This document shows positions 48,214 through 57,909 of a stretch of DNA of 64,000 nucleotides, piece by piece. The stretch is from an uncultured Acidobacteriia bacterium (GTDB taxonomy: Bacteria > Acidobacteriota > Terriglobia > Bryobacterales > Bryobacteraceae): positions 1 through 64,000 of the forward strand of contig CAINNJ010000012.1 of assembly GCA_903851195.1 (NCBI GenBank), written 5' to 3'. Below the pieces are notes generated by a model. The model was given only the letters and a program-made list of their open reading frames with translations. It searched no databases and was not told the origin of the DNA. Position numbers and translations under genes: made by a program. The stretch's first letter is position 1. The number at the start of each line of letters is the position of its first letter.

Positions 48214-49158
48214 TCATTCCGACTTCCGGCGCGCGCGCAGCCGGTCGAGCCACCTGTCGGCCAGCGCGGAGTGCCATATCGATGGCCGCGGCCGCTCGTC
48301 ATCTTCCGGCAGGTAGCCCAGTTCCAGCAGCAGCGGCTTCACGATATCCATGACCGGCTGGAGTTCGCGACGCGAATGACGACGGTATTTGCCCACCGAT
48401 GCCGACCGGATTTTCGGTTGCATACGGGATATTGCACTGCCGGGATCCGGGACGCCGGCGAATTCGAGAATTCGGCGGGCGGCGGCGGGAAAGTCGGCGC
48501 ATAAGCGCTCATACCGGACGTCGAGGTATCGCTCCCGCAGCATCTGGCCGAAGTTGTTTCCCACCGTGACGCTGTTGGCCCAGTGGAGCGCATTGAAGAC
48601 GGCGCTGCGGCGGCGATATGACGGCCCGGTCAGCCGCATTCCGTGGAATGTCCGGATACGGTCTGTATTGAAGTAGATCTTGCGCCAGAAGGGGTCGGAC
48701 GGCCCGTGGTGATCGCAGAAGGCAACGTCCCGGCCGTCGCGGATAAGGTGGATGTAGCGCGCGTTCGGGAAGATGAAGTCGAGGACCGGCAGAATGTAGG
48801 TGGTTTCGCAGAGTTTCCAGCCCCAGAGCCTGCCGTCGCCCGGCTGAAAGCCTTCCAGGTGGCGCTGAAACATCCGGCGGGCGATGTCCTGTAGCTGATC
48901 GTCCGGCTCGCGATGCGGATCCCAGAGCGGGCCATAGTCGGGGTAATAGCGGCGCACCAGAAAGTCGACGAGTTCGAACATATCGAGGGAGTCGCCGGAT
49001 TCGTTGCAGTGCGCGCCCATGAATACGCCGGCGGACTGCAGCAATTCGGTCAGAATCCGGCTGCCGGAATGCGATTTATTGAAAACGATGACCGGATGGG
49101 GCTGAAGGGCGAAGCCGGCGCGGAGCGAACTCAGGGTTGTCCCGGGGGCTTCGGTCAA
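48214..49158 (-). CDS. Sulfotransferase-family protein
   Basis: 314 aa from the TTG at 49158, which has AAAGGA eight bases upstream; the frame continues to 49404 but passes the start of the divergent methyltransferase gene. NKSHSGSRILTELLQSAG is the PAPS 5'-phosphosulfate loop, and FPNARYIHLIRDGRDVAFCDH the 3'-phosphate-binding loop. It may sulfate a surface glycan, as it lies among glycosyltransferase genes. Confidence 0.8.
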   Translation of the reverse strand: MTEAPGTTLSSLRAGFALQPHPVIVFNKSHSGSRILTELLQSAGVFMGAHCNESGDSLDMFELVDFLVRRYYPDYGPLWDPHREPDDQLQDIARRMFQRHLEGFQPGDGRLWGWKLCETTYILPVLDFIFPNARYIHLIRDGRDVAFCDHHGPSDPFWRKIYFNTDRIRTFHGMRLTGPSYRRRSAVFNALHWANSVTVGNNFGQMLRERYLDVRYERLCADFPAAARRILEFAGVPDPGSAISRMQPKIRSASVGKYRRHSRRELQPVMDIVKPLLLELGYLPEDDERPRPSIWHSALADRWLDRLRARRKSE

Positions 49159-49244
49159 AAAGCTAATTCCTTTCCCCGGCGTTTGCAGGAAACAAACGTT
49201 GCCATGAAACAATTGTCGCTTAATCCAGGGTTGAGGCCCGCCTG

Positions 49245-49835
49245 ATGCACCAGAAGGTTTTTGAGGAGTTCGATCGGGTTTGCCGGGAGCGCGGGGCGGG
49301 CGGCGACGTTCTGGAGATTGGCGCGGTGCCGGCGGAAGACAGCCTGCTTTTTCTGCCGGCATTGCGCGGAGCCCGAAGCCGGGTGGGACTGAATCTGGCC
49401 GCACCGGTTGTTTTTCCGGGTTGCCGGATCATCCAGGCGGACGCTAACGAGATGCGCTGTTTCGCGGACGCCTCGTTCGATACGGTGCTCTCCAACGCGG
49501 TCCACGAGCATGATCGTTTCTTCTGGAAGTCGCTGGCGGAGATCCGGCGCGTTACACGGCCGGGAGGTCTGATTGCGATCGGCGTTCCGGGGTTCGACAA
49601 ACTCAAGGCGGAGCGCTGGTTCGGGCGGATGAACCGAGTGCCGCTGCTTCGCCGGCTGACCGGCGCGCTGGCGGCGTCCACGCTATGTCTGCAGATCCAC
49701 CGGTTTCCGTCGGATTATTATCGCTTCAGCCCGGAGGCGGTGCGGGAAGTTTTTCTGGAAGGTTTGCTGGAGGTCGAAGTGCGGACGATGCTGTTGCCAC
49801 CCAGAATCATCGGCGCCGGCGTGAAGGGCCATTAG
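49245..49835 (+). CDS. Class I SAM-dependent methyltransferase
   Basis: 196 aa. GDVLEIGAVPAEDSLLFLP is the SAM-binding motif I (E-I-G), and FADASFDTVLSNAVHEHDRFF motif II/III. The C-terminus is typical of type 11 methyltransferases in glycan clusters. Its last 29 nt overlap the convergent glycosyltransferase end. Target likely a sugar or lipid precursor, by context. Confidence 0.75.
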   Translation: MHQKVFEEFDRVCRERGAGGDVLEIGAVPAEDSLLFLPALRGARSRVGLNLAAPVVFPGCRIIQADANEMRCFADASFDTVLSNAVHEHDRFFWKSLAEIRRVTRPGGLIAIGVPGFDKLKAERWFGRMNRVPLLRRLTGALAASTLCLQIHRFPSDYYRFSPEAVREVFLEGLLEVEVRTMLLPPRIIGAGVKGH

Positions 49836-50892: not shown

Positions 50893-51761
50893 ATGTCCCC
50901 CCGCGCCGCCAGGATGCGCCGGATGCCGTCTTCGAGGGTGATGCGCGGCGCCCAGCCGAGAACGCGGCCGGCTTTGCGAATGTCCGCGACGATGTCGGCG
51001 ATTTCCCTCGGCCTGGTTTGACCGTCGTATTCGACCGAGGCCGCGCGGCCACTGAGGCGCAGCACCAAATCTGCCAGTTCCGCCACCGAGACGCTTCGGC
51101 CCGAGCCGATGTTGAAGATTTCGAAGTTCGAGTCGCGAAAGGAGAGCGCGGAAAGAAAGGCATCCACGACGTCATCGATATAAACGAAGTCACGGCGCGG
51201 CGCGGGATCGCGGAGACAGATCCGTCCTTCGGCGAGACCATTGAGAATGCGCGGGAGCAGAAAGTCTCCGCGTTGCCCGGGTCCGAAGACATTAAACAAC
51301 CGGAGCACCACCACGGGCAGTCCGAAGTCGCGCCGATAGCCGGCGCACAACTGCTCCGCGATGATCTTGCCCGCCATGTAAGGATTTGCGGGCGCGGTGG
51401 GGTGGAGTTCATCGACCGGCAGATATTGCGGTGTGCCAGAGACAGGAGTTCCGGCCAGGACGAAGCGCGCCTGACGACGCCTGGCGAGTTCGAGAGCGTT
51501 CAGAGTGGAAAGAAAGTTATTCCGACAAAATGCCCGGGGATCGTTGTAAGACTCGGGCACAAAGGTTCGCGCCGCGAGGTGGATGACGGTATCGACGGGG
51601 AGGGTGGCGCCCGCGTTTTGCACCTGTTCCCAATCGGACAGGTCGAGGTCGCGGCCGAGTCCGATAGCGGAGTAGCCATGGGCCAGGAGGCGCGCCATCA
51701 GTGCGGAGCCGATGAACCCGTCCGACCCGGTTACCAGAATACGGCCCGGATTCGCGGTCAT
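50889..51761 (-). CDS. NAD-dependent nucleotide-sugar epimerase/dehydratase
   Basis: 290 aa from the ATG at 51761, overlapping the upstream stop (ATGA). The Rossmann VTGSDGFIGSALMARL (GxxGxxG) and active-site YMAGKIIAEQL (Y-x3-K) are present, with RLFNVFGPGQRGDF in the substrate lobe. It probably makes a modified nucleotide-sugar for the surface glycan. Confidence 0.85.
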   Translation of the reverse strand: MTANPGRILVTGSDGFIGSALMARLLAHGYSAIGLGRDLDLSDWEQVQNAGATLPVDTVIHLAARTFVPESYNDPRAFCRNNFLSTLNALELARRRQARFVLAGTPVSGTPQYLPVDELHPTAPANPYMAGKIIAEQLCAGYRRDFGLPVVVLRLFNVFGPGQRGDFLLPRILNGLAEGRICLRDPAPRRDFVYIDDVVDAFLSALSFRDSNFEIFNIGSGRSVSVAELADLVLRLSGRAASVEYDGQTRPREIADIVADIRKAGRVLGWAPRITLEDGIRRILAARGDI

Positions 51762-52741
51762 ACGCTGTACTCCCGTGGACGAAAGCGTTCGCCATTGCGG
51801 GCGATCCAGTCGACCGTCCGGCGGAGGCCTTCCGGGAGCGTGGTCCAAGGCCGCCATGCGGTTCGCGAACAGAGCTTCCGGTTGTCGCAAAGCAGTTCGT
51901 TGACCTCGCTGGCCGGTGGCCGGCAACGTTCCATTTCCTGCGAAACCGAAATTTCCCGGCCGGTCACGGAGCCGAGCATTTCGATCAACTCTCCCACGGA
52001 GACACTGTGCCCGCTGCCGATGTGGACAGCTTCGCCGACGAAGTCGCCCTCGGCAATCGCGACAAAGCCGCGAACCACGTCATCCACAAAGGTCAGGTCT
52101 CTGCGCGGGTAGAGGTTGCCCAGGCGCAACGGGCCCGCTGCGTCCAGAAGCTGGCTTGCGATGGTGGGAATCAAAGCCCGCGCGGACTGGCGCGGTCCAT
52201 AGGTGTTGAACGGGCGGGCAAGGGCCACGTTGAGTCCGAAGGCGCGGTGATAGCTGAGGGCCAGCTGGTCGGCGGAGACCTTGGTGGCGGCGTAGGGGGA
52301 ACCGGAGTTCACCGGGTGATTCTCGTCCATGGGTGTGTACCGGGCGGAACCGTAGATTTCGCTGGTGGAGGTGAGCACCACTCGCTCCACTCCCCGAAGG
52401 CGCGCCGACTCCACGATGTTGTAAGCCCCGTCGATATTGGTTCGCAGATAGGCCTGCGGCGAGATGTAGGAGTACGGGATGCCGATGAGCGCGGCCAGAT
52501 GGAAAACCGCGGAGCAGCCGTCCATGGCGCGGTGCACGGAATCGAAGTCCCTGATATCGCCGCTGAAGAATTCGAGGTCCGCCGCGCAGTCGCTGTTTTC
52601 CAGCCAGCCGCGCGAGCCGGCCGAGTTGTAGTGGACGAAGGCCTTGACGCGACATCCCTGTTGCACCAGGTGCTCCGTGAGATGCGAGCCGATAAAACCG
52701 CCGGCTCCGGTTACCAGTATCGTGGCGCTCCGCAGATTCAT
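51758..52741 (-). CDS. LegB-like NAD-dependent 4,6-dehydratase (extended SDR)
   Basis: 327 aa from the ATG at 52741, overlapping the upstream stop. VTGAGGFIGSHLTEHLVQQG, STSEIYGSARYTPMDE and YAATKVSADQLALSYHRAFGL show the nucleotide-sugar 4,6-dehydratase pattern with S-x(n)-Y-x3-K. The similarity to LegB suggests UDP- or GDP-HexNAc as substrate, but that is family inference. The upstream frame extension to 53341 is rejected. Confidence 0.85.
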   Translation of the reverse strand: MNLRSATILVTGAGGFIGSHLTEHLVQQGCRVKAFVHYNSAGSRGWLENSDCAADLEFFSGDIRDFDSVHRAMDGCSAVFHLAALIGIPYSYISPQAYLRTNIDGAYNIVESARLRGVERVVLTSTSEIYGSARYTPMDENHPVNSGSPYAATKVSADQLALSYHRAFGLNVALARPFNTYGPRQSARALIPTIASQLLDAAGPLRLGNLYPRRDLTFVDDVVRGFVAIAEGDFVGEAVHIGSGHSVSVGELIEMLGSVTGREISVSQEMERCRPPASEVNELLCDNRKLCSRTAWRPWTTLPEGLRRTVDWIARNGERFRPREYSV

Positions 52742-53913
52742 GCTTCGGTTCTCCCGGTGCGGCGGGCGGCGCATTCGCGGTAAAGGTTTTCGATGGCGTC
52801 TATGTTCTTGTCCATTCCGTTTTGTACGGCCATTTCCCTGGCGGCTTTGGCCATTGTCAGCCGAGCCGCCGGCTCCGCGCAGCGCGCCATCGCGACGGCG
52901 AGCGCATGGCTGTCTTGCGGGTCGTCGAGCACGAAGCCTTCCTTTCGGGTCATCAGTTCCGACGCCCCGTTGTGTGTGGTGGTGATGGCCGGCAAGCCAC
53001 AGGCGAGCGCTTCGAGCACGGTCAGGCTGCAGGCATCGTAGTAGGTGGGCAGCACAAACGCGTCGGCCGCCGCGTAGTACGGAAGGACGTTGTCGACGAA
53101 GCCTTCGAACAAAACGAAGTCCGCGACACCCAGGCGGGCGGCCGCCCGGCGCTGTTCCGGATCCGCCGTCTTGCCGATCATTGCGAGCCGGGCTTCCGGA
53201 TGACCGGAGCGCAATTGCGCGAAGGCTTCGAGCAGCGGCCTGAAGCCCTTCAGGCGCGGGTTGTGGGCGGCGAAGAGATACAGGGTGTGGCGCGGTTCCA
53301 GTTTCAGCCGGGTGCGCATTTCCTGCCGGTATTCCGCGCAAACCGACGGGGAGAATCTCGCGGTGTCGACTCCGTTCGGGATCCGGCGAATCCGATCGGC
53401 AGCCACGCCGTGCAGTTCGCGCAGATCCCGTTCCACCATGCGGGAGACGGCGATGATGGCGCCGCGGCTCCGCGCATATTGCCGCCGTTCGAATTCACGA
53501 TACTCCAGCAACCATCGCCAATAAGACGGGCGCAGTCTTTGCTCCCAGCGCTCGCGGGGCGTGCGGCTCGAGTTGTCCAGACGGCGATTTGCCACGCCGG
53601 AACCGGCCTGCGGGTGCAGGATCCCGGCACTCCAACAGGCCCCGAGATCGTGCACGACGTCGGCTTTCAGGCCGGCGAGGGCCACCTGGACCGCCCGCGC
53701 CCGCCGGAGGCGACTGCCGGACCACGGGAGCAGGTGGAGCAAGGGCCGCTCCGATTGCCTGGCTTTGCCCGGCTGACTGGCTGGGCCCGCGTGAAAGGCG
53801 ACGACGTGGACTTCGTGCCCGCGTTCCGCAAGCCCGCGAACCAGTTGGCATGTCCAGTGTTCGAGTCCTCCGGCGGCGGAATCGAAACGCTGGCAGGCGA
53901 TGGCGATCCTCAT
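52738..53913 (-). CDS. WaaG-like glycosyltransferase (GT4)
   Basis: 391 aa from the ATG at 53913 that overlaps the upstream stop (ATGA); an in-frame GTG lies at 53922. RIAIACQRFDSAAGGLEHWTCQLVRGLAERG is the N-terminal GT-B start, and the C-terminal domain has VLPTYYDACSLTVLEALACGLPAITTTHNGASEL with the E-x7-E motif. The sequence resembles LPS core glucosyltransferase I (WaaG). It adjoins heptosyltransferase genes, fitting LPS core assembly. Confidence 0.83.
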   Translation of the reverse strand: MRIAIACQRFDSAAGGLEHWTCQLVRGLAERGHEVHVVAFHAGPASQPGKARQSERPLLHLLPWSGSRLRRARAVQVALAGLKADVVHDLGACWSAGILHPQAGSGVANRRLDNSSRTPRERWEQRLRPSYWRWLLEYREFERRQYARSRGAIIAVSRMVERDLRELHGVAADRIRRIPNGVDTARFSPSVCAEYRQEMRTRLKLEPRHTLYLFAAHNPRLKGFRPLLEAFAQLRSGHPEARLAMIGKTADPEQRRAAARLGVADFVLFEGFVDNVLPYYAAADAFVLPTYYDACSLTVLEALACGLPAITTTHNGASELMTRKEGFVLDDPQDSHALAVAMARCAEPAARLTMAKAAREMAVQNGMDKNIDAIENLYRECAARRTGRTEA

Positions 53914-54962
53914 GCGACGCACCTGGCAGGCAGGGCGCGAAGAACAGCCTCAAAGACCTGGTCGACGGACAGATCGCGCATGCAGCGATGATGGCCTTCG
54001 GGACAGGCGCGCTGTCCGCAGGGACCGCAGTCCACTTTCAGCTGCAGGCGGATCTCCTGGTGGTAGCCGGTGTCGGTCCAGCCGATGTGCGTGGGGCCGA
54101 AGAGCGCGACCACCGGGACACCGAACGCGGCTGCAAAATGTCGCGGGCCGCTGTCGGTGGTTACCAGACAGCGGGCGCGCCGCACGCAGGCTTTGCTCAG
54201 GCCCGGAGAGAGAGGCTGGCCAGCCAGAGTGAAGACGCGCGGATGGGAGGCCAGGGCGGCAATCCGCGCGGACCGCTCCCGTTCGGCGGGTCCGCTCAGA
54301 ACGATCACGGCCATGTCCGTTTGCGCGGCCAGGCGGACTGCGAGAGCCGCGAAATACTCGTCTGGCCAGAGCTTCGCGGGGCCGTACGCGCCGCTCTGGT
54401 TCAGCAGGATAACGGGTTCTTCCGGCCTCAGCCCGAAGGACTGCCAGGCGCGGTCGGCAGCGGCCTCGTCCTCCGGCGACGCGTGCAACTGCATGTGTTT
54501 CGGTTGCTCCGGGCAGCCCAGAGAACCGGCAATTCTGAGGTAGTAGTCGAGCGCCGGGATGGGGAGGAAAACGTTGCCGTCATGTGGGGGCTGGAGTGCC
54601 CGGGTGAGGAGCCAGCCGCGCCGGTAGCGATCATAGCCCGCGCGGTCCGGGATTCCGCTCAGGGTGGCCAGGAACGCCGTCAGAAAGTCGTTGGTGAGGT
54701 GCACCGAGGCGTGGAACCTTCCGCGCACCAAACGCCACCAAAGCGCCGGCGGCCGCTGTCGCCAATCGCGGGACTGGCGGTCATAGAGCCAGAACTCCGT
54801 CAGCCATTCGGTTCCGTGAAGGACCTGGGCAATGGTCGGTTTCATGATGCCGACGATTTCGGCGTCCGGTCCGAAATGAAGCCGGAGTGCCCGCAGGGTG
54901 GGAGTCGCCATCACGGCGTCACCCACCCAGTTTGGCACGAACACGGCGATCCTGCGGGGCAT
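53910..54962 (-). CDS. Heptosyltransferase WaaF-like
   Basis: 350 aa. GT9 features include VPNWVGDAVMATPTLRALRLHFG, TTDSGPRHFAAAFGVPVVALFGPTHIGWT near the C-terminus and the ADP-heptose site. The C-terminal CGPCGQRACPEGHHRCM cluster is typical of WaaF-type enzymes. The ATG begins one base after the next gene's stop at 54963. It adds a heptose to the LPS inner core. Confidence 0.87.
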   Translation of the reverse strand: MPRRIAVFVPNWVGDAVMATPTLRALRLHFGPDAEIVGIMKPTIAQVLHGTEWLTEFWLYDRQSRDWRQRPPALWWRLVRGRFHASVHLTNDFLTAFLATLSGIPDRAGYDRYRRGWLLTRALQPPHDGNVFLPIPALDYYLRIAGSLGCPEQPKHMQLHASPEDEAAADRAWQSFGLRPEEPVILLNQSGAYGPAKLWPDEYFAALAVRLAAQTDMAVIVLSGPAERERSARIAALASHPRVFTLAGQPLSPGLSKACVRRARCLVTTDSGPRHFAAAFGVPVVALFGPTHIGWTDTGYHQEIRLQLKVDCGPCGQRACPEGHHRCMRDLSVDQVFEAVLRALPARCVA

Positions 54963-56018
54963 TTACCGGTTTCCAGCGATTGCGCGATTCCGCGACAACA
55001 GCGCTTCCGCCGCGCTGAAAATCTCCTGAGCGTCGAGCGCCTGCATGTGCCGGGACTCCGCGGGATTCCTGTAGGCGTGGTGTTCCGGCGCGCGCGACGC
55101 CTGCAGTACGCGATGGCCATCGCCCCAAGGACCTGTATGCTCCGGGTGCGTGGGACCGAAGAGCGCCACCAACGGTGTGCCGAGTGCCGCGGCCGCGTGC
55201 ATGGGGCCGGAATCGCAACTGAGCATCAGAGACGCCCGGCGATAAAGACACAACGCCTGCCCGAGAGTCAGGGCGCCGGCCAGGCTGACAGCGGTGCCAC
55301 CATCCATGCGGCGAACCAGTTCGTCGCCGCGTTGGCGCTGGTCGGCGTCGCCCGACACAACCACAGGCAGGCGCCATTGCCGCGAGAGCCGGCCGGCGAC
55401 TTCGGCTGCCTGCGCGGCTGGCCAGTCCTTGGCCGGCCAGCGGCTGAACGGGTTGCAGACGACGAAACCCGAGGGTGGCAGGCCTGAGTTCCGGAGGACG
55501 ATGTCGAGCGTCCCTTCGTCCGCCGGATCGGGGAAGATCTCGGGCTGCAGGGAGGACACCGGAATTCCCAGGCCCCGGCAGATCCCGGCGCAAATGACGA
55601 CCGCGTGCGTCTTGTTATCCGGAGCCACCGCGCTCTTCCAGCCAGGCCGCGTCTGGCCACGGCCCGCCTTGATCCGTGCGCCGCTCAGATAAACCCAGGC
55701 CGCGCTGCGGCGCGTTCCCTGCAAGTCGAGCGCGAGATCGAAAGGGCCGAACCTGGCGAGTTGACGGCGAATCCGCAGCAGATGCGAGGGCGAGGGCCGC
55801 ACGTCGGAAGAACATTCAATGAGCCCGGTCAGGTGAACGTTCCCCTTCACCACTGGCCTCCAGCGGCTCTCCACGGCCATGAAGATCTCCGCTTCGGGGA
55901 ACGATTGACGCACCGCGCGCACGCAGGGGGTGGCGTGAATAATGTCTCCGAACGAGCTGAGCTTCACCAGAAGAATGCGCTTCGGCGGTGAAGGCAAACG
56001 GCGAACATCAAAGGGCAA
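54963..56018 (-). CDS. Heptosyltransferase WaaC-like (GT9)
   Basis: 351 aa. RILLVKLSSFGDIIHATPCVRAVRQSFP and LSCDSGPMHAAAALGTPLVALFGPTHPEHTGPWG are the GT9 marks; the segment DLALDLQGTRRSA corresponds to WaaC. It overlaps the WaaA/GT29-type gene by 11 nt. The two heptosyltransferases in tandem imply a heptose-containing core oligosaccharide in this organism. Confidence 0.86.
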   Translation of the reverse strand: MPFDVRRLPSPPKRILLVKLSSFGDIIHATPCVRAVRQSFPEAEIFMAVESRWRPVVKGNVHLTGLIECSSDVRPSPSHLLRIRRQLARFGPFDLALDLQGTRRSAAWVYLSGARIKAGRGQTRPGWKSAVAPDNKTHAVVICAGICRGLGIPVSSLQPEIFPDPADEGTLDIVLRNSGLPPSGFVVCNPFSRWPAKDWPAAQAAEVAGRLSRQWRLPVVVSGDADQRQRGDELVRRMDGGTAVSLAGALTLGQALCLYRRASLMLSCDSGPMHAAAALGTPLVALFGPTHPEHTGPWGDGHRVLQASRAPEHHAYRNPAESRHMQALDAQEIFSAAEALLSRNRAIAGNR

Positions 56019-57909
56019 GTCCCGCTCCTCCGGCCCTGAACCGTTCCAGAGACTCGCGCAGGATATCGCTCAGAATGATGGTCTCGCCGCGATATTCGCA
56101 GAGGGCCGCGTCGACGATCGCGAGCTCGGTATCCGGCGTGTGCACCGAGGCGTAGACATTGTGCGAGCGGAGGTCGCCGGCATAGCGGCCGTCGGGGTGC
56201 CGGAACAGATCCATGCCGGCGATGATGAGACGCTCCGGGTTGAGCGCGGCGGCCGCCGCAACCATGAGCGCTCCGTTGCTGGGGCGCGCCGGCCAGGAAC
56301 GATCGCGGATCAGGGGGGAGATTCGCTCCATGGTCAGGTAGTCCATCAGTTTGAGGCCGCGGGTGGCGGCGTGCCGGAGCAAGAGGGCATATTCCAGCCG
56401 GATATTCCAGATCCCAAAGATACACGGCGGGACTTTGTGAAGGGTAGTCGGGTTACCGACAAACACCAGGTCCGGGCGGTTCAGGAAATCCCGGCTGATC
56501 CATCGCCAGTTGACCCGCATCAGGCAATCGTGCGAGTACGTTGGAATGCGGGGATCTTCGGAAGACGGTCCGTTGCCGAGACAGAGGATGGAGCGCGGGT
56601 GCCGCAGGCGCTCCCGCAGGGTGGGCCAATCGTCGATGCGATGCCGCGTGAAGACTTGCGCGGTTTGCCTCCAGATTTTGTTGTGGCCCACCTTGTCACG
56701 GAAGGTCGGCACCCGGGCCTGGTCTTCCGGTCCGGAGACCGGGCGAGACGGAGGGAGAGAGGGCGCAAGAGCCTCCAGGGTTCGGCGGGTTGCGTCACCG
56801 GCGGCACCTGGCGCTGAAGCCGGAGAGACACGCTTTCCGGAGCGAAGAATTTCCGCAAGGGCGGCCTCCAGTTGGTTCGGGACGAACGGAACGACGGGGC
56901 AGCCCGCGGCGGTCGCGGCGGCTTCTTTGTCCCGCTTCGTTTCCGGCGTCCCCTGTTCGCCGAACACCGCGGCGCCGGCGACCGTAAACAGGGCGGGGAG
57001 TTCGCCTGGTAAATCCTCAACCACCACGTCGCAGGCGGACTGGCGCCCGCGGCTTCTCCGGCAGGCCGACCAACCCATCGCCTGAATGCTTCGCAGGACA
57101 GCGGCGGCGCGGGCGCGATGCAACGGTTCGAGCACCAGACAGGTGTCCGGCCGGATTTTTCGCAGGGCGGCGAAGACATGGAGAATAAGGGGCTCTTCCT
57201 CGCGGCAGATTTCGGCGGCAATCACGATCGGCGATTTCGAATCGACCGCGAGAAACTTTCGAACCGCTTCCGGATTCGACTGAATCGAGGGGCGCAGGGG
57301 GTCGAAATCGAGCGTACCGGTGACGACGAGCCCTTCCCGGGGCGCGCCCTGTTCGAGCAACCGGTCCGCGGCTTGGTGGTCCTGCAAGCAGAGGACGATG
57401 CCGGGATGCCCGTTTCGGACCGCCTGGAGGAGCGGGGCAGCCAGGTTCCCGGGCCGATCGAGATTGACCACTGTCACCGGTATGCCGGCGTGCAGAGCCT
57501 GTGAAAGCGTTCGGCTGCCGAGACTTCGTCCACCATCCAGCAGCACGAGGGCGGACGGGTTCACGCGGTTGGCGAAACGGCGGAAGGAGGTGCCCGCGTT
57601 CCAGGGCGCCGGACACGCGAGATCGTTGGGGAACGCGTGCCGAAGGTAATCGACCGTTGCGGGAGAAGTTGAAGTGAGCACCAAGCAAAGGTGGGCCCGG
57701 TCCCGCATGACGTCGCGGATCAGGTTGCGGGCGGCGTCGAACGAGACGGGGTTGTCGCCGTGAATCCAGACCGAAGAGACGCAGCCGGGAAGCAGCAGGG
57801 CCGTGCTTTGTGCCAGGTACAGCAGGGTTCCCGCGGCCCCGACTCCGTCGGCGATGAGCAGCGAGGCGCGTGAGCGCGGCGCGACGCTCAGAAAATGCGG
57901 AAATCGCAT
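56008..57909 (-). CDS. Kdo-transferase-like domain fused to GT29 sialyltransferase-like domain
   Basis: 633 aa. Residues ~15-390 follow the WaaA Kdo-transferase order (VTGTLDFDPL for VTGNxKFD, then SPIVIAAEICREEEPLIL and VVVEDLPGELPALFTVAGAAVFG). The region where WaaA has its catalytic Glu reads WIHGDNPVS, so the Glu seems replaced. Residues ~441-470 (LCLGNGPSSEDP, then HDCLMRVN) correspond to sialyl motif L; 543-566 (PSNGALMVAAAAALNPERLI) to motif S; H590-x4-E595 to the VS motif of GT29. It lies next to heptosyltransferase genes, so both activities would act on the LPS inner core. Confidence 0.75.
   Translation of the reverse strand: MRFPHFLSVAPRSRASLLIADGVGAAGTLLYLAQSTALLLPGCVSSVWIHGDNPVSFDAARNLIRDVMRDRAHLCLVLTSTSPATVDYLRHAFPNDLACPAPWNAGTSFRRFANRVNPSALVLLDGGRSLGSRTLSQALHAGIPVTVVNLDRPGNLAAPLLQAVRNGHPGIVLCLQDHQAADRLLEQGAPREGLVVTGTLDFDPLRPSIQSNPEAVRKFLAVDSKSPIVIAAEICREEEPLILHVFAALRKIRPDTCLVLEPLHRARAAAVLRSIQAMGWSACRRSRGRQSACDVVVEDLPGELPALFTVAGAAVFGEQGTPETKRDKEAAATAAGCPVVPFVPNQLEAALAEILRSGKRVSPASAPGAAGDATRRTLEALAPSLPPSRPVSGPEDQARVPTFRDKVGHNKIWRQTAQVFTRHRIDDWPTLRERLRHPRSILCLGNGPSSEDPRIPTYSHDCLMRVNWRWISRDFLNRPDLVFVGNPTTLHKVPPCIFGIWNIRLEYALLLRHAATRGLKLMDYLTMERISPLIRDRSWPARPSNGALMVAAAAALNPERLIIAGMDLFRHPDGRYAGDLRSHNVYASVHTPDTELAIVDAALCEYRGETIILSDILRESLERFRAGGAGLAL

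Follow-up and report, generated by a model that had tools for sequence, protein, structure and literature searches.

The window analysed here is a 64,000-nucleotide stretch of DNA from an uncultured Acidobacteriia bacterium (contig CAINNJ010000012.1), and our subject is a gene on its minus strand (56008–57909) that joins two glycosyltransferase-like domains in a single protein. The N-terminal half resembles WaaA, a transferase of 3-deoxy-D-manno-oct-2-ulosonic acid (Kdo), and has lost functional residues of that enzyme; the C-terminal half, the better kept of the two, resembles the sialyltransferase superfamily. This architecture recurs in three other genomes, and a nonulosonate synthase was not found in three hosts. 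As a tentative reading, to which we give somewhat less than an even chance, the protein would be a lateral-Kdo transferase with cytidine 5'-monophosphate (CMP)-Kdo as donor, combining a GT42-like C-terminal domain with a dead WaaA that serves as a module for docking to the acceptor and the membrane.

A fusion gene found in four genomes

The open reading frame (ORF) extends from an ATG at 57909 to a stop at 56008, the stop lying within the coordinates, and its translation gives 633 aa. On the plus strand, the single frame translated across this interval is interrupted by stops, and the G+C content at third codon positions is 0.763. The 633-aa ORF is real, and the two-domain fusion proposed in a preliminary description of this DNA was borne out, as the frame is open and the same architecture is present in loci L036 (638 aa), L038 (670 aa) and L035 (412 aa) of three other genomes. 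The L035 protein is 221 aa shorter than that of the window, chiefly because about 180 residues are missing from its WaaA half, and is without most of the second, donor-binding part of WaaA.

Pairwise identity among the four members was 47.2–60.9% in the C-terminal half, compared with 21.7–38.2% in the N-terminal half (N-terminal values involving L035 rest on 157 columns). As the C-terminal value was the higher one in all six pairs, this half is the better-kept part of the protein. Despite its shortened WaaA half, L035 retains the C-terminal domain at 60.9% identity, and 78 of 238 columns of this domain are invariant across the four members.

The fusion is rare. In overlapping draws of genomes, the C-terminal domain was detected in 2 of 396 from the phylum, in 2 of 399 from the class and in 1 of 395 from the phylum of G455, a metagenome-assembled genome (MAG) labelled Deltaproteobacteria that is represented by loci L036, L055 and L061, the first of which carries the fusion. 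Among 61 genomes, the window's own (G000) included, this part of the protein matched only in G000 and G049. A contig scan with the whole protein yielded nothing and with the C-terminal domain alone two loci, and in viral contigs 22 stretches fit a pattern, none of which was confirmed as a relative. No stand-alone C-terminal domain was seen among the genome draws, the contig scan and the viral-contig search; the WaaA-like half is present in all four members, entire in three and shortened in one.

Rarity of this kind would suit a gene in decay or two genes run together by chance, as would the long branches of a tree of the N-terminal domains, in which all three full-length fusions stand apart from 29 canonical WaaA sequences (the branches are flagged as unsafe, the shortened L035 is not included, and no conclusion rests on this tree). 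However, the frames are open in four genomes, and the identity and the invariant columns of the C-terminal domain speak for a maintained protein, which makes decay or run-on exceedingly improbable.

Seven plasmid records were considered as relatives of the fusion and rejected, as they matched the WaaA half only (23–27% identity over 41–48% of the query). All of these matches fell within residues 42–345, four of the seven spanned exactly residues 59–317, and the sole annotated feature was waaA. No paper on a fusion of WaaA with a sialyltransferase was recognised among the matches listed from the open-licence literature; a CAZy record of the architecture is possible.

An N-terminal half that has lost functional residues of WaaA

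The domain resembling WaaA (family GT30) covers approximately residues 44–360 (56830–57780, minus strand). PF04413 matched residues 46–203 at 38.5 bits (cut-off 23.9) and was above its cut-off in the three other fusions as well, while the similarity to WaaA spans residues 46–317. The best NCBIfam WaaA model reached E 5.1e-26 and 91.1 bits, under its equivalog cut-off of 438. In a sequence search of the PDB with the whole protein, Aquifex aeolicus WaaA was the sole sequence listed (E 0.0011). The same enzyme took ranks 1–3 in Foldseek (E 6.7e-12 to 2.6e-11), with template modelling (TM) scores of only 0.25/0.42 and a model of the whole protein whose predicted local distance difference test (pLDDT) value was 52.9, based on a three-row alignment; over residues 41–200 the ten-residue means were 55–84. 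These results agree with the preliminary description, which had recognised a WaaA-like N-terminal half.

The N-terminal domains of the four fusions were aligned with 29 canonical WaaA sequences, namely the host's own and those of 28 loci (L007–L034); seven WaaA matches lacking loci (G049, G058, G015, G042, G008, G009 and G020) are not part of this comparison. Thirteen positions with a role in A. aeolicus WaaA, taken like the role of E31 from an excerpt of PMC6286764, were transferred through the alignments. Twelve of them were invariant in all 29 canonical sequences, and the position of F247 was variable. In the fusions, G30, E31, W102 and K162 were altered in four of four members. The general base E31 corresponds to Ser56 in the window (codon 57742–57744), shortly after the motif WIHGDNP at residues 48–54, to Gln in L036 and L035, and to Ala in L038. 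At the position of G30 we found Val in the window, Glu in L036 and L038, and Ser in L035; W102 is replaced by Gly in the window, L036 and L035 and by Ser in L038; K162 is replaced by Asp in the window and L036, by Gln in L038 and by Val in L035, where this position is doubtfully aligned beside a gap.

The region of R212 and E276 is missing from L035, and none of the other three fusions retains either residue: the Arg that binds the CMP phosphate corresponds to Leu263 in the window (codon 57121–57123), Trp in L036 and Tyr in L038, and the Glu to Ala, Gly and Ala, respectively. Partly kept positions are S28 (1/4), E98 (1/4, with Asp in two members) and, in the second half, N273 (1/3) and P211, G248 and L250 (2/3 each). 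Since the base, the Lys, the CMP-binding Arg and the ribose Glu are all altered, the N-terminal half could hardly work as WaaA does, and from the alignment it looks catalytically dead. The loss of the WaaA Glu had been noticed before, and it extends to all four fusions, while the residue is kept in 29 of 29 canonical sequences; every fusion that has the positions of the Gly, the Lys, the Arg and the ribose Glu is changed there as well. The suggestion that this half might be a scaffold or have an altered role is supported.

Alternatively, the N-terminal half might still be a Kdo transferase with an altered mechanism, so that the protein would be bifunctional. The PF04413 matches above cut-off in four of four fusions are in line with this, and Kdo transfer may need no classical base: in the available excerpt of PMC12856342, mutation of the candidate bases of KdoT left core extension unchanged. 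Nevertheless, the alterations go beyond the base, with R212 and E276 changed in three of three members and N273 in two of three, and L035 is without most of the second WaaA half. We consider a bifunctional enzyme very unlikely.

The C-terminal domain and its nearest relatives

The C-terminal domain (approximately residues 400–633; 56011–56712, minus strand) appears to be sialyltransferase-superfamily-like and nearest to GT42, as suggested by profile searches; we do not assign it to any family. In a comparison with 24,736 Pfam models at E ≤ 10, a search in which the HMMER filters discard most weak matches, the sole listing was CST-I (GT42, PF06002), for two of the four members and with a best E of 0.066. 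No NCBIfam model was listed for this domain. A four-row profile listed 12 PDB sequences, nine of which were CST-type sialyltransferases (E 0.065–0.42), all of them presumably members of GT42; the remaining matches were a designed protein and two cadherins. When the profile was restricted to the last 97 columns, 9 of 10 listed sequences were CST-type sialyltransferases. The two-row, four-row and 97-column profiles share sequence, and the searches made with them are hence not independent.

GT29, the family named in the preliminary description, was rejected for this domain. PF00777 was not listed for any of the four members at E ≤ 10, and no GT29 structure was listed in the PDB sequence searches with the whole protein or with the two-row, four-row and 97-column profiles; the only Pfam family listed was the one of CST-I, below its cut-off. 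The expected match to a WaaA/GT30 profile was obtained with PF04413, while the one to a GT29 profile was not. PF00777 had no match in 199 genomes either, but as no control genome matched, this is not evidence. The GT42 model gave one match in 199 genomes of the phylum, below cut-off and likewise with no control matched.

Three blocks recalling the sialyl motifs had been proposed, and the first two of them were found to be conserved. In the L-motif-like block (residues 441–470; 56500–56589, minus strand) 16 of 30 columns are invariant across the four members, and in the S-motif-like block (residues 543–566; 56212–56283), to which HMMER aligned a block of the CST sialyltransferases, 13 of 24. 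The VS-like H-x4-E (residues 590–595; 56125–56142) has a single invariant column out of six, that of His590, the proposed general base; its final position is Glu in two members and Asp in the other two. No stretch was assigned to sialyl motif III. Together the three stretches contain 30 invariant columns out of 60, compared with a mean of 19.7 after shifting, and 5.9% of circular shifts reach this number. The gathering of invariant columns in the motif stretches is suggestive only.

Donor sugar, gene neighbourhood and a possible role

Four hosts of the fusion were searched for enzymes that make donor sugars: G000 (99.66% complete), G049, G111 and the MAG G455. A NeuB-type synthase was not found in any of the four with PF03102; the matches to this model (two in G000, one each in G049 and G111) were all 3-deoxy-D-arabino-heptulosonate 7-phosphate (DAHP) synthases over the NCBIfam cut-off. 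A NeuA/PseF-type cytidylyltransferase was not found in the four hosts either. The PF02348 matches in G000, G049 and G111 were KdsB, over cut-off, with GlmU as a further match in G000 and as the sole match in G455. In G000, G049 and G111 no CMP-ulosonate synthetase other than KdsB was found, and each of these genomes also has a separate WaaA (200.1 bits to PF04413 in G000). Because NeuB was not found, KdsB stands alone and a separate intact WaaA is present in these three hosts, the donor is likely to be CMP-Kdo; judging by gene content, this would be the CMP-ulosonate to be expected in three of the four hosts.

In G000 the canonical WaaA forms one protein of 770 aa with LpxK, which acts one step earlier in the lipid A pathway (L002:1339–3651; G000:C55). 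An LpxK-like part was also seen in the same open frame at 23 of the 28 WaaA loci of relatives (L007–L034).

The fusion gene is the first in a tightly packed run on the minus strand that continues with two GT9 genes, a GT4 gene, a LegB-like dehydratase, an epimerase and another GT4 gene; on the upstream side, 77 bases separate the fusion gene from the end of a type I phosphodiesterase gene. The first GT9 ORF (54963–56018) is heptosyltransferase-like by its profiles and, from its mechanically assigned start, overlaps the 3' end of the fusion gene. The second (53910–54962) scored 135.6 bits with a heptosyltransferase II model (cut-off 134.6), so that the adjacent heptosyltransferases and the glycan cluster described before were both recovered. 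They are followed by the GT4 glycosyltransferase (52738–53922) and the NAD-dependent 4,6-dehydratase (51758–52741, start set by eye). A sulfotransferase-family gene (48214–49404, minus strand; PF13469, 1.4e-12) also lies in the glycan cluster and may sulfate a surface glycan. Downstream of the L036 fusion there are two GT2 reading frames, the first of them short, and then a GT9 gene whose product is 46% identical to that of the window's first GT9 gene. In G111 a GT8 gene and then three consecutive genes (L048:7535–10095) lie downstream of the fusion; two of these three have similarity to 2-oxoglutarate (2OG)-Fe(II) oxygenases, one over cut-off. Kdo 3-hydroxylases belong to the broad 2OG-Fe(II) oxygenase class, and the oxygenase-like genes of G111 may have a link to Kdo modification.

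The C-terminal domain might instead transfer a sialic-acid-like nonulosonic acid (legionaminic acid, pseudaminic acid or N-acetylneuraminic acid, Neu5Ac) to lipopolysaccharide (LPS). Its sialyl-motif-like blocks would fit such a role, as would a nearest family made up of sialyltransferases and the LegB-like dehydratase within the cluster. However, the dehydratase scored 407 bits, short of the 475 bits required for LegB, and neither the synthase nor the cytidylyltransferase of such a pathway was found in the four hosts. We regard this alternative as unlikely. Of the two decorations considered in the preliminary description, the sialic-acid-like one is thus disfavoured, as three hosts have no CMP-ulosonate synthetase that we could find except KdsB, and the Kdo-like one fits better.

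If the fusion is a lateral-Kdo transferase, the canonical WaaA, joined with LpxK at another locus of the genome, would add the first Kdo to give Kdo-lipid A. The fusion would act after it as a membrane-associated glycosyltransferase with the C-terminal domain as its working half. Within the sialyltransferase superfamily, with GT42 as its nearest family, this domain would be an inverting transferase that uses a CMP-ulosonate, namely CMP-Kdo, as donor and probably His590 as general base. The dead WaaA half would hold the enzyme at the membrane and present the lipid A-Kdo or inner-core acceptor, and the C-terminal domain would attach an additional Kdo laterally, next to the heptoses that the downstream GT9 enzymes provide.

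Several observations weigh against this proposal, besides the position of the LegB-like dehydratase in the cluster of the fusion. The likeness to GT42 is under all curated thresholds (10.6 of 25 bits for the window's member), and the list of the two-row profile was headed by a haemoglobin, ahead of a sialyltransferase (rank 2, E 0.82) and an odorant-binding protein (rank 3). The model of the C-terminal domain is poor (pLDDT 52.4, three-row alignment); in its Foldseek list, pantoate-beta-alanine ligase came first and no match reached E 0.001, while CST-II or CST-I took ranks 2–5 and, in all, 9 of the top 24 rows, with a best E of 0.017. A second His, His571, shortly before His590, is invariant in four of four members and could be the catalytic or CMP-binding residue instead; it is followed by Pro572 in three of the four. 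An excerpt of PMC12887879 describes a (K/R)xHP motif in sialyltransferases and retaining Kdo transferases, which is incomplete in the fusions, as its K/R position is Phe or Tyr in all four. No heptosyltransferase was seen beside the G111 fusion (by eye; 4 of 15 other ORFs were scanned) or beside the L035 fusion, where 333 bases of contig remain beyond the gene and the other ORFs, judged by eye, are not glycosyltransferases. Finally, our searches of G455 found LpxC but no KdsB and no second WaaA; the bin may be incomplete, the contig may be misbinned, or the donor may not be CMP-Kdo.

Some of these points would also be accounted for by a domain of sialyltransferase-like or related Rossmann fold whose donor is not a CMP-ulosonate or whose glycan is not the LPS core. 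The weak likeness to GT42 and the missing KdsB of G455 fit this view, as do the archaeal HPPK and unrelated Rossmann enzymes in the Foldseek list and the gene neighbours that vary among genomes. On the other side, the N-terminal half derives from an enzyme of CMP-Kdo and lipid A and points to LPS, as do the GT9 genes near two of the four loci, and CST-I was the sole Pfam model listed for the domain. We hold this alternative to be doubtful, though a real possibility.

The lateral-Kdo transferase remains our preferred, if uncertain, reading, and with a probability a little short of one half it would define a new bacterial Kdo transferase family with a sialyltransferase (GT42/GT29-type) fold and a dead WaaA turned into an acceptor-docking module. 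If so, a pseudo-glycosyltransferase domain would guide another glycosyltransferase, unrelated to it, to the lipid acceptor that the two have in common: a Kdo transferase would have become a pseudo-enzyme that targets another transferase, and a sialyltransferase fold would act on Kdo in bacteria. This would provide a bacterial parallel to the Kdo transferase of family GT29 proposed in plants and would bear on the move of the sialyltransferase fold between Kdo and sialic acid, a subject touched on in excerpts of PMC5811610 and PMC11288761.

Compared with known systems, the N-terminal half is close to WaaA/KdtA (GT30) in its profile and its Foldseek ranks and differs from it in lacking the general base, the Lys, the CMP-binding Arg and the ribose Glu. 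With CST-I and CST-II of GT42, the C-terminal domain shares a GNG block and an S-like block in the same order and sub-threshold matches; unlike these enzymes, it is below the family cut-off, joined to a dead WaaA, and encoded in hosts in which sialic acid synthesis was not found. The invariant His downstream recalls His188, the general base of CstII (excerpt of PMC4202792), an equivalence by order only, because the HMMER alignment stops before His590. The GT29 sialyltransferases of animals, plants and some bacteria resemble the fusion in the order of the L-, S- and VS-like blocks, while the fusion matches neither PF00777 nor a GT29 structure. According to the part of PMC5811610 available, Alphaproteobacteria account for 19 of the 23 GT29 sequences reported from bacteria, and bacterial sequences lie at the base of the GT29 tree.

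The donor proposed here has a counterpart in Arabidopsis, which contains hardly any sialic acid or none. Its RCKT1/MGP2, a member of GT29, was proposed to be a CMP-Kdo transferase for rhamnogalacturonan II (RG-II), on the ground that Kdo is missing from the RG-II of mutant callus (PMC11288761, in excerpt). The abstract of PMC11339370 mentions a Maf transferase that accepts Kdo. In their place after WaaA, KdoT, the KdoIII transferase of A. baumannii, and WaaZ, which adds a third Kdo in E. coli (excerpt of PMC6286764), are alike to the fusion in its proposed role, the addition of a further Kdo. Both are set beside it by description only, and KdoT, unlike the fusion, is described as a GT-B enzyme and labelled ELM1-like in the excerpt of PMC12856342.

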